DNA of 64,000 bases from Roseovarius litoreus (lineage in GTDB: Bacteria > Pseudomonadota > Alphaproteobacteria > Rhodobacterales > Rhodobacteraceae): NCBI RefSeq assembly GCF_900142765.1, contig NZ_FRCB01000001.1, forward strand, positions 558,001 through 622,000, given 5' to 3'. The position numbers were made by a program, and so were the translations under genes. Of this stretch, positions 17,006 through 26,287 are shown piece by piece. The first letter of the stretch is position 1. Each line of letters starts with the position of its first letter. The notes under the pieces are model-generated. The model had not been told where the DNA came from and did not search any database. It was given only the letters and a program-made list of their open reading frames with translations.

Positions 17006-17033
17006 GTGATCACGTAAATTACCGCGTGATCAC
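17006..17033 (-). promoter_or_regulatory. Paired GTGATCAC operator upstream of sdhC
   Basis: Two perfect 8-bp palindromes GTGATCAC at 17006-17013 and 17026-17033, start-to-start 20 bp (about two helical turns), with TTT outside the left copy and AAAA outside the right. The pair ends about 146 bp before the sdhC ATG. The same arrangement occurs before sucC (26259-26287), pointing to one regulator for both operons. The regulator is not identified. Confidence 0.65.
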
Positions 17034-17136
17034 AAAATTGCGGGTTCTAAACACCTTTTGCGCTTGAAACATCTCGAAGGATGACGCGCTGAGTCTCTTC
17101 CGTCAGCCGCATCGCAAAGCGCAAGCACCGCCTTTC

Positions 17137-17144
17137 GTGATCAC
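17137..17144 (-). promoter_or_regulatory. Third GTGATCAC palindrome upstream of sdhC
   Basis: A single copy, flanked by AAA on one side as in the paired sites, lying 10 bp before the 3' end of the RND gene and about 278 bp before the sdhC start. It may be an auxiliary operator for looping, or a chance match. Confidence 0.4.
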
Positions 17145-17154
17145 AAATCCGCCG

Positions 17155-20100
17155 TCATGTCTTGAACACCCTGTAGATCGCCGGAATGACCAGCACTGTC
17201 AGCAAGGTGGACGAGATCAGCCCAAAGAACAACGACAGCGCCAGCCCCTGGAATATCGGATCGGCAAGGATCACCGCCGCCCCGATCATCGCGGCCAGCG
17301 CCGTCAGCAGAATCGGCCTGAACCGGATCGCGCCTGCGTCGATCAGTATCTCCAGATCGCTCTTGCCCGCAGGATCGGTATGCCGGATGAAATCCACCAA
17401 CAGGATCGAATTGCGCACGATGATCCCCGCCAGCGCGATGAACCCGATCATCGACGGCGCCGAAAACGGCGCCTCCCACAACCAATGGCCCAGCATGATC
17501 CCGATAAAGGTCAACGGCACGGGCGTCAGGATCACCAGCGGCACCCGAAACGATCCGAACTGCGCCACCACAAGGATATATATCCCCAGCAACGCCACCC
17601 CGAACGCCGCGCCCATATCGCGGAACGTCACCCAGGTGACCTCCCATTCCCCGTCCCACAGCAGCGTGACTTGGCTTTCATCGCTCGGCTGGCCATTCAG
17701 CGCGATCTGCGGCTTGTACCCATCGGGCCAGTCCATCGCGTCGATCTGCTCGGCCACCGCCAGCATCCCGTAAAGCGGCGCCTCGAAATCCCCGGCCAGC
17801 TCCGCCGTGACCATTTCAAGATCGCGCCCGTTGCGCCGGAAGATCGGGAACGATGCCAACTCTTCGCGCAGCTGCACGACATCGCCCAACTCCACCACGC
17901 CCCGCGCCCCCGGCAGCACATTTGCCGGGATCGGCGTCGACAGGAACCGCTGATCCAGCACGCGGTCAGCCTTGGCCTGCGCCACGGTGATCGGGATCGG
18001 ATCACGCCCCTCGCCGCGATGCGAATAGCCGACGACCGTCTGCCCGTTCAGGATGCTCAGCGTGTCGAACACATCAGGTTCCTGCACGCCGAAAAACTCC
18101 AGGTCATCGGCCGAAATCGTCGCCCGCAACCGGCGCGCCTGTTCCCCGAAACTGTCATCCACATCGACGATGAACGGCACCTCTTCGAAGGCTTGGCGCA
18201 ACTTGCGCGCCACCTCGCGCCGGGTCTCTGCATCCGGGCCATAGACCTCGGCCAAGAGCGTGGCCAGAACCGGCGGGCCGGGCGGCGGCTCGACCGTCTT
18301 GAGCACGGCACCCTCGGGCAGATCGAGCGCCCCAAGCCTGTCGCGCAGGTCCAGCGCGATCTCATGGCTGGTTCGATCGCGCACGTCCTTGGACGCCAGC
18401 TTGATCTGCACATCGCCCTGTTCGGGCATCTCGCGCAGGTAATAATGCCGGACAAGCCCGTTGAAGTTGAATGGCGACGCGGTGCCGGCATGGGTCTGCG
18501 CCTCGATCACCTCGGGCAGGTCCATCGCCACCCGTGCCACCTGCTGCACCACGGCATCCGTCGCCTCGACAGATGATCCCTCGGGCAGGTCCACCACCAC
18601 CGACAATTCCGATTTGTTGTCGAAGGGCAGCAGCTTCACGGTCACATCCTGTGTGTAAAGCAGGCCGAGCGATCCGAAAGACACCACCACCGTCGTCAAC
18701 AGGAACAGCCAGCTGCGCGCCTTGGTCGCCAGGATCGGCTCCGCCACACGACGGTAAAGACGCCCCAAGGCGCCCTCGCCCTCCTGATGATGGGGGCCGC
18801 CATCCTTGCCCGCGACCTTCACCATGAGCCACGGCGTCACCATCACGGCCACAAAGAACGAAAAGATCATCGCCGCCGACGCATTGGCCGGGATCGGGCT
18901 CATATAAGGCCCCATCAATCCCGACACGAACAACATCGGCAACAGCGCCGCCACCACCGTCAGCGTCGCCACCACCGTGGGGTTGCCCACCTCTGCCACC
19001 GCCTCGATCGCGGCGCTTACCTTGGACTTGGCCCGGTCCAACTGCCAGTGCCGCGCGATATTCTCGATCACGACAATCGCATCATCCACAAGGATACCGA
19101 TGGAAAAGATCAGCGCAAAAAGCGACACGCGGTTGAGCGTATAGCCCATGATCCACGCCGCGAACAATGTCAGCAGGATCGTCATCGGGATCACAACCGC
19201 CACCACGATTCCCTCGCGCCAGCCGATCGACAGCCAGACCAGCGCGATGATCGACACGGTCGCCAGACCCAGATGGAACAGCAGCTCGTTGGCCTTCTCA
19301 TTGGCGGTTTCGCCGTAATCGCGGGTCACCGACAGCGCGACCGTTTCGGGAATCAGATCGCCCTCAAGCGCGTGGACCCGGTGCAGGATTTCTTCGGCGA
19401 CCACCACCGCATTGGCCCCGGCCCGCTTGGCCAGCGCCAGCGTGACCGCCGGCGCGCGGTGCAGATCACCGTCACCGGTGCGGCTCACCTGCGCCACGGT
19501 GTGCTCGGACATATCCGGCACAAAATCAATATCGGCCACGTCCCCGACATAGACGGGGCGCCCGTCGCGGGTGGTGAGCAACAGTTTGGCGACGGCCGCC
19601 GGATCACTCAGCGTCTCGCCCGCGATCAGGTCGATCTGCTGGCCGCCATCGCGCACCAGCCCGGTGCTGAAGGCCCGGTTCGCCGCCCCGACCTTGCCCG
19701 CCAGCTGTTGCAGCGTGACCCCGTAAAGCGCCAGCTTTTCGGGGTCAGGCGCCACTCGGATCGCCTCCTGCGCCTCACCGGTCAAATAGGTCAGGCCGAC
19801 ATTCTCGATCTTGGTCAACTCGCCGCGCAGCGCCCGCGCGATCCGGCTCAGGTCATACGAACTCACCTCCTGCCCCGGCTTGCCCGACAAGGTCAGCGTG
19901 ACAATCGCCACATCGTTGATCCCGCGCCCCACGATCAGCGGCTCGGGGATGCCGACGGGGATACGGTCCATGTTGGCGCGCACCTTTTCATGCACCCTCA
20001 GAATCGCCGCATCCGCCGAGGTGCCGACCTCGAACCGCGCCGTCACCATCGCGCCATCGTCGCGCGTCTGCGAATAGACATGCTCCACATCGTCGATCGC

Positions 20101-25133: not shown

Positions 25134-26096
25134 ATGGCCAGACCCAAGATTGCCCTCATCGGCGCAGGACAGATCGGCGGCACCCTCGCTCACCTCGCCG
25201 CGCTGAAGGAACTGGGCGATGTCGTCCTGTTCGATATCGCCGAAGGCACCCCCGAAGGCAAGGCGCTCGACATCGCGGAATCCGGCCCCTCCGAAGGGTT
25301 CGACGCGCGCATGAAGGGCACCCAGAGCTATGCCGACATCGCAGGCGCCGATGTCTGCATCGTGACCGCAGGCGTGCCGCGCAAGCCCGGCATGAGCCGT
25401 GACGACCTTCTGGGCATCAACCTCAAGGTCATGAAATCCGTCGGCGAAGGCATCCGCGACAACGCGCCCGACGCCTTCGTGATCTGCATCACCAACCCGC
25501 TCGATGCGATGGTCTGGGCGCTGCGCGAATTCTCGGGCCTGCCCCACGAGAAAGTCTGCGGCATGGCCGGCGTGCTGGACAGCGCGCGGTTCCGCCACTT
25601 CCTCAGCCTCGAATTCGACGTCTCGATGAAGGACGTCACCGCCTTTGTTCTGGGCGGTCATGGCGACACGATGGTGCCGCTGACGCGCTATTCCACCGTC
25701 GCCGGCGTGCCTCTGCCCGACCTGATCGAAATGGGCTGGACCACGCAGGACAAGCTGGACGCCATTGTTCAGCGCACCCGCGACGGCGGCGCCGAGATCG
25801 TCGGCCTGCTCAAGACCGGCTCCGCCTTCTATGCGCCCGCCACCTCGGCGATCGAAATGGCCGAAGCCTATCTCAAGGACCAGAAACGCGTTCTTCCCTG
25901 TGCCGCCCATGTCGATGGCGCCTATGGCCTGAACGGCTTCTATGTGGGCGTGCCCACGGTGATCGGCGCCGGTGGCATCGAGCGCATCGTCGAAATCAAG
26001 CTCAACAAGGACGAGCAGGCGATGTTCGACAGCTCGGTCAAGGCCGTCAAGGGCCTCGTCGAAGCGTGCAAGGGCATCGACCCGTCGCTCGCCTGA
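25134..26096 (+). CDS. mdh: Malate dehydrogenase
   Basis: 320-residue NAD-dependent malate dehydrogenase of the LDH-like (type 3) group common in alphaproteobacteria. The nucleotide-binding motif GAGQIGG is at 10-16, [13 protein letters not shown] holds the substrate-binding Arg residues, and the catalytic His176 lies in [11 protein letters not shown]. The ATG at 25134 has GGAG 9 nt upstream; a long in-frame extension upstream is non-coding. It closes the TCA cycle by forming oxaloacetate, and is followed by a terminator and then sucCD, so it is transcribed separately from the suc operon despite adjacency. Confidence 0.97.
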
Positions 26097-26118
26097 TCCG
26101 ATCATCGCCCAAGTGTCG

Positions 26119-26149
26119 GGGCCGGGTGCCATCAGGTGCCCGGCCCTTT
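26119..26149 (+). terminator. Terminator after mdh
   Basis: Stem GGGCCGGG (26119-26126) with CCCGGCCC (26139-26146), a 12-nt loop that can pair further, then TTTCC. The T-tract is short, so efficiency is uncertain. Confidence 0.7.
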
Positions 26150-26258
26150 CCGTTTCAGAACCGGCAAAATCATCTGCCCTCACAGGCCCGCGTGACAAGG
26201 TCGAAGCGGCTTGTCGCGCCCGTTAACCGAGTCGCGCGCAGCTTGCGCTTGAACTTTT

Positions 26259-26287
26259 GTGATCACACGATTTATTGCTGTGATCAC
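26259..26287 (+). promoter_or_regulatory. Paired GTGATCAC operator upstream of sucC
   Basis: Two perfect palindromes at 26259-26266 and 26280-26287, start-to-start 21 bp, with TTTT outside the left and AAAA outside the right copy. The layout matches that before sdhC (17006-17033). The pair ends 109 bp before the sucC ATG. Confidence 0.65.

Follow-up and report, generated by a model that had tools for sequence, protein, structure and literature searches.

In a 64,000-nucleotide stretch of the Roseovarius litoreus genome (contig NZ_FRCB01000001.1, positions 558,001 to 622,000; hereafter the window), the promoters of the sdh (succinate dehydrogenase) and suc operons each carry two closely spaced copies of the 8-mer GTGATCAC. 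We consider it probable that each pair is a double operator of AkgR, a GntR/FCD regulator that would activate sdh and suc from upstream and repress its own gene, and that the window's genus possesses a third operator at sdh. The sdh pair occupies positions 17003–17037 (TTT-GTGATCAC-N12-GTGATCAC-AAAA; copies at 17006–17013 and 17026–17033, 20 bp apart) and lies 146 bp from the ATG of sdhC (16476–16859, minus strand), the first gene of sdhCDAB, which is followed by sdhD, sdhA, and sdhB (13152–16462, minus strand; translations recognized by eye). The suc pair (26256–26290; TTT-GTGATCAC-N13-GTGATCAC-AAA; copies at 26259–26266 and 26280–26287, 21 bp apart) lies 109 bp from the ATG of sucC (26397–27590, plus strand), the first gene of the suc operon. 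No strand was assigned to either operator, and the spacings of 20 and 21 bp, with T-runs to the left and A-runs to the right at both operons, are as an original prediction from the sequence had described them.

Six exact copies of GTGATCAC are present in the window, at 17006, 17026, 17137, 22423, 26259, and 26280. The original prediction had counted the same six, placing the fourth at 22424, and had put the chance expectation at about one; shuffles of the window gave a mean of 1.36 copies and reached six in none of 100 rounds. Genome-wide, the lone 8-mer is near chance and unenriched, with 92 copies in the 3.93-Mb, 30-contig assembly against about 83 scaled from the window's shuffle mean, and GTGATCAC alone was dropped as a regulon marker because its count is at background. 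The exceptional feature is the close pair, not the 8-mer: the pattern GTGATCAC-N8–18-GTGATCAC occurs exactly twice in the whole genome, before sdhC and before sucC, where 0.024 such pairs would be expected if the 92 sites were placed randomly. An 8-mer as frequent in coding DNA as in promoters had been named in advance as speaking against a regulatory site; the background count would weaken a case built on the 8-mer, but close pairs are in this genome restricted to the two promoters.

Absence of the pairs from relatives had likewise been named as an adverse outcome, and the opposite was found. In a sample of 149 genomes of the family (Rhodobacteraceae), one per genus, searched with a permitted gap of 8–18 and with the reversed motif as control, at least one pair was present in 133 genomes (two in 101, one in 25, three in five, and four in two) and none in 16, and the control gave none in all 149. 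Genomes with three or four pairs include G135, G100, G069, and G081. A class-wide draw of 385 genomes (gap 12–13), five from the family and 380 from outside it, returned two pairs in all five family members and one pair each in two of the outsiders (G295 and G350). Among 30 fetched pair loci of other genera, 12 lie before sdhC and 16 before sucC; the remaining two are an 18-bp-spaced pair (L027) and a 21-bp pair, the third of its genome, in G042 (L092, 9294–9322), which precedes fumC (fumarate hydratase, named by eye) and would add a third successive step of the tricarboxylic acid (TCA) cycle to the regulon in that lineage. The geometry of the pairs was taken from a set restricted to pair-bearing promoters in which the sdhC or sucC match starts at residue 1–3, with duplicates collapsed, and this set describes geometry, not pair frequency. 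Spacing is 21 bp in 34 of its 39 sdh promoters and 39 of its 42 suc promoters, and 20 bp in the rest, although gaps giving 18–23 were allowed. A T stands just outside the left copy in 34 of the 39 sdh and 41 of the 42 suc promoters, and an A just outside the right copy in 34 and 42 of them, respectively.

The regulator of the pairs is most likely AkgR. Of two papers cited here, one lists GTGATCAC among the AkgR sites of Rhodobacter sphaeroides and terms AkgR a transcriptional activator (PMC6365646), and the other gives the GntR protein RSP_0981 as predicted regulator of the genes for succinyl-CoA synthetase, succinate dehydrogenase, and alpha-ketoglutarate dehydrogenase (PMC4344238). The window's genome (G000) encodes an AkgR orthologue of 215 aa (L066; G000:C12:11363–12007, minus strand), on a different contig from the pairs, with FCD and GntR domains scoring 62.4 and 49.5 bits, above the respective Pfam cut-offs of 24.3 and 27. 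In G051, a genome that carries both pairs, a GntR gene situated some 4.9 kb away from the sdh pair encodes a protein 76–77% identical to L066. The gene order there (mdh, permease, mcl2, two small genes, mch, sdhC, sdhD, sdhA ... GntR gene; names by eye) fits that of RSP_0968 (mdh), RSP_0970 (mcl-2), RSP_0973 (mch), RSP_0974–6 (sdh), and RSP_0981, and for this reason G051 is taken to be R. sphaeroides-like. RSP_0981 is presumably AkgR itself, and direct activation by AkgR was reportedly shown in a 2015 mBio paper. Four features expected of the AkgR regulon were found: an encoded orthologue, GTGATCAC at the target promoters, the sdh and suc operons as targets, and co-occurrence of regulator and operator across genomes. 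The earlier suggestion of a composite site for one regulator of the lower TCA cycle, with AkgR as candidate, is supported; for R. sphaeroides, both the regulator and its targets were already in print.

For co-occurrence, at most 20 candidates per genome were scored, and we set the orthologue cut at a best E-value of 1e-57 or better (at least 50% identity where listed), the next best being 1e-44 or worse. The 149 family genomes divide into 130 with both pair and AkgR, 13 with neither, three with AkgR only, and three with a pair only (Fisher test, 1.8e-13, shared ancestry being ignored). The AkgR-only genomes are G040, which has one-mismatch pairs at both promoters, and G122 and G147 (76 and 73% complete), which are uninformative on pairs because neither sucC nor sdhC was found in them. 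The 13 genomes with neither were searched over the 330 bp before sdhC (12 genomes) and before sucC (13 genomes; that of G021 identified only by a 45–47% match), and even the best pair-like stretch has at least three mismatches in 16. AkgR matches at 1e-40 or better were found in three of 152 class genomes, namely the window's own, one other family member, and one match of 38% identity. Within the window's genome, an AkgR paralogue of 38% identity lies at G000:C1:705528–706130, and a second match is present in many family genomes.

It is improbable, in our estimate, that a different regulator binds GTGATCAC, such as NtrC, another GntR protein, or CceR, which we take to be RSP_1663. RSP_1663 and NtrC are both predicted sdh regulators in R. 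sphaeroides, the former being a LacI-family regulator of central carbon metabolism that is also predicted on mdh (PMC4344238). There are, moreover, 25 GntR-domain matches in the window's genome, and a Pseudomonas simiae GntR protein with 32% identity to AkgR, PS417_07240, the regulator of a deoxyribonate cluster, has been proposed to recognize the same palindrome, GTGATCAC, ahead of that cluster; its target is a catabolic operon, and pairing goes unmentioned in the passages that describe it. RSP_1663, however, belongs to another family and has another motif, and its predicted motif, [AGT]GTT-N6–8-AAC[ACT], is absent from both strands of the window's sdh and suc promoters (16860–17160 and 26096–26400). 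The AkgR orthologue co-occurs with the pairs and has a site at its own gene, and among the 38 other genomes for which pair coordinates were listed, 16 have akgR no more than 25 kb from a pair. Neither L049, a protein of the GntR/FCD type, nor L063, a GntR protein next to a hutF-like gene that holds a GTGATCAC (names by eye), was retained as a candidate, since both lack an operator at their own promoter and neither had a match close to sdh or suc in the 20 regions covered. The sole GntR match in those regions came from the G051 region and was to L066. The locus of L058 also holds a GTGATCAC.

The promoter of akgR itself was compared in 45 loci and in the best 80 matches from named genomes, two sets that may share species. 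One copy of GTGATCAC stands ahead of the akgR start in 38 of the 45 loci (30 of 30 best-matching and eight of 14 diverged, and none in G051) and in 77 of the 80. An exact TTGAC begins 18 bp upstream of this site in 33 of the 38 loci and 69 of the 77, so that the site would overlap the expected −10 region, and akgR is on this account probably autorepressed. An in-frame start codon lies 7–10 bp beyond the site in 34 of the 38 loci, and together this arrangement suggests that akgR may be both leaderless and self-repressed. The exact 12-mer TTGTGATCACAA occurs in the window's genome at akgR only. In G051, the akgR promoter (L084, near 10411) keeps the TTGAC box and lacks GTGATCAC, unlike most relatives examined. 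The autoregulatory site and its absence in G051 are additions to the known AkgR system, and the site may be new.

These single sites also bear on whether the paired palindrome acts as an RNA hairpin (a terminator, attenuator, or processing site) instead of a protein-binding site, which we regard as very improbable. The two copies can indeed pair as RNA, at −17.2 kcal/mol for suc and −15.8 kcal/mol for sdh. The 3′ flank, however, is A-rich and not U-rich in either direction, and the palindrome is therefore no intrinsic terminator. Copies occur singly at akgR and some 110 bp upstream of the pair at sdh, spacing is fixed at 20 or 21 bp in 81 of 81 collected promoters while the spacer sequence varies, and the one-base changes of G040 fall in one copy with no matching change in the other. 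Nor was a near-intact pair found in the genomes described above that lack both pair and AkgR.

The position of the pairs relative to the likely core promoters is consistent with a predicted role of AkgR as an upstream activator. In 27 of the 39 sdh promoters a GTGAC box stands at offset 57–60 from the pair, against a mean of 0.15 and a maximum of two of 39 in 1000 rounds of base shuffling of those stretches. In four other sdh promoters GTGAC lies at offset 48 (two), 70 (one), or 80 (one), in steps near one helical turn, four cases that prove little. With a 16-bp spacer from the GTGAC box to a TA-rich −10, read by eye, the sdh palindrome centers would fall near −96 and −117 as counted by hand. 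In the window's subclade the usual box is replaced by a tentative core promoter, TGTGCA-N16-TAAAAG (16929–16956, minus strand), assigned by eye. In the corresponding stretch after the suc pair, conservation is highest at offsets 48 and 49 (counted from 1), where T occurs in 81 and 74% of 42 promoters, and these bases form part of a tentative core promoter, GTTTAAT ... TATATC (26334–26365, plus strand), the rest of which was read by eye. The suc pair is thus about one helical turn closer to its likely core promoter than the sdh pair. It is unlikely that AkgR binds the pairs and represses sdh and suc. The repressive appearance of akgR's own site would suit such a role, as would a TTGAAC just before the left suc copy in the window, which makes a promoter running through the pair possible; the conserved GTGAC box downstream of the sdh pair and the description of AkgR as a transcriptional activator (PMC6365646) both argue for activation.

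The copy of GTGATCAC at 17137–17144 marks a third, upstream sdh operator (17134–17147, no strand assigned), at a distance of 111 bp from the nearer of the paired copies. This copy is not a chance occurrence and recurs in the window's genus: of 84 genus genomes, 49 have a pair followed by a third copy within 90–115 bases, against none with the reversed control. The 30 loci taken from that search, which were selected for the third site and include the window, all have this copy upstream of sdhC and at 98–114 bp from the pair. An unselected check by similarity covered 18 sdh loci of other genus genomes, setting aside two suc loci (L305 and L309), a copy-free locus (L307), and the G563 repeats L308 and L310; the third copy lies at 102–111 bp in 16 of the 18 and at 189 bp in one, and is absent from one. 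Outside the genus, 38 sdh loci were compared, and a copy comparably far from the pair was seen in one of them (L205, 106 bp), while two more hold copies at 57 and 235 bp. Spacing within the sdh pair also distinguishes the genus, being 20 bp in 34 of 34 collected genus loci vs. 21 bp in 34 of 38 loci elsewhere. Gene content upstream is variable, with the RND efflux gene found between mch and sdhC in the window (17155–20355) occupying the same place in only five of 30 genus loci, the window included; the third site is therefore no by-product of a conserved neighbor. The genus-level third operator may be new.

Together, these arrangements lead us to hypothesize that one AkgR dimer would bind each TTTGTGATCACAAA-like palindrome, and that the 20- or 21-bp spacing would place two dimers two helical turns apart on the same face of the DNA, where they may bind cooperatively. 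At sdh and suc, AkgR is probably an upstream activator in this organism, given where each pair stands relative to the likely core promoter, and at its own gene the single site would instead mediate repression. The third operator would have been added in the genus, some 110 bp upstream of the pair at sdh, and perhaps supports looping or higher-order binding; a TCA intermediate as effector is a guess. A wider scheme is possible, though we would sooner bet against it than for it, in which the whole family follows one operator grammar: two palindromes 20–21 bp apart in register with the core promoter would specify activation of consecutive TCA steps (suc, sdh, and once fumC), one palindrome over the −10 region would specify autorepression, and a third, distal palindrome, gained in the genus that has 20- rather than 21-bp spacing, would add a DNA-loop layer at sdh.

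Several observations weigh against AkgR acting as an upstream activator through these pairs. First, pairs are present where no orthologue was found in G019 (91% complete), G096 (77%), and G114 (100%, 320 contigs), and the G114 mismatch is not readily explained by incompleteness because that genome is listed as 100% complete; with at most 20 candidates scored per genome, an orthologue could have been missed. Second, the control pattern gave five hits in one genome (G222) of the class-wide draw. Third, a sucC tree, which kept 54 of 55 listed loci and coded G040 as pair-positive despite one mismatch in each pair, requires nine changes for akgR and six for the pair, and along its well-supported branches just two comparisons are independent, a number too small for a test. 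Only four of its 51 inner branches are starred, so that the tree gives no proof of independent losses. Fourth, eight of 39 sdh promoters, the window's included, and 10 of 34 genus sdh loci are without GTGAC, the suc core promoter is weakly defined, and the pairs are far upstream for a simple activator. Fifth, seven of 45 akgR loci are without the autoregulatory site (six of 14 diverged loci and R. sphaeroides-like G051). Finally, the AlphaFold model of AkgR is poor, with a mean predicted local distance difference test score (pLDDT) of 71.3 and a predicted template modeling score (pTM) of 0.39.

McbR of E. coli has targets that differ from those of AkgR. By sequence it is the best-scoring solved structure (4p9f; E-value 2.6e-19 over residues 17–212), a likeness that carries no claim of the same operator. 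The closest known system is the AkgR regulon of R. sphaeroides, which shares with the present one an orthologous GntR/FCD regulator, the GTGATCAC palindrome, and the targets sdh, sucCD, and sucAB (PMC6365646; PMC4344238); it differs in that a third sdh operator is present here, as is a single akgR site that is lacking in G051. The family-wide conservation of pairing is an addition to that system, and the pairing rule may be new. Literature searches, including those with the bare 8-mer and with TGTGATCACA, gave no description of pairing among the matches listed; the primary AkgR paper was outside their scope, and we accordingly do not claim that the rule is unpublished.

An observation at two promoters thus becomes a testable circuit for the lower TCA cycle in a family with many marine heterotrophs. 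Work in R. sphaeroides could have missed the predicted autoregulatory loop, since the R. sphaeroides-like genome is without the akgR site. Two paired promoters and one single-site gene also make a compact natural system in which to ask how operator number and spacing set activation vs. repression. The one copy of GTGATCAC in the window outside these promoters, at 22423–22430 (no strand assigned), lies in the mch reading frame and is probably a chance occurrence.

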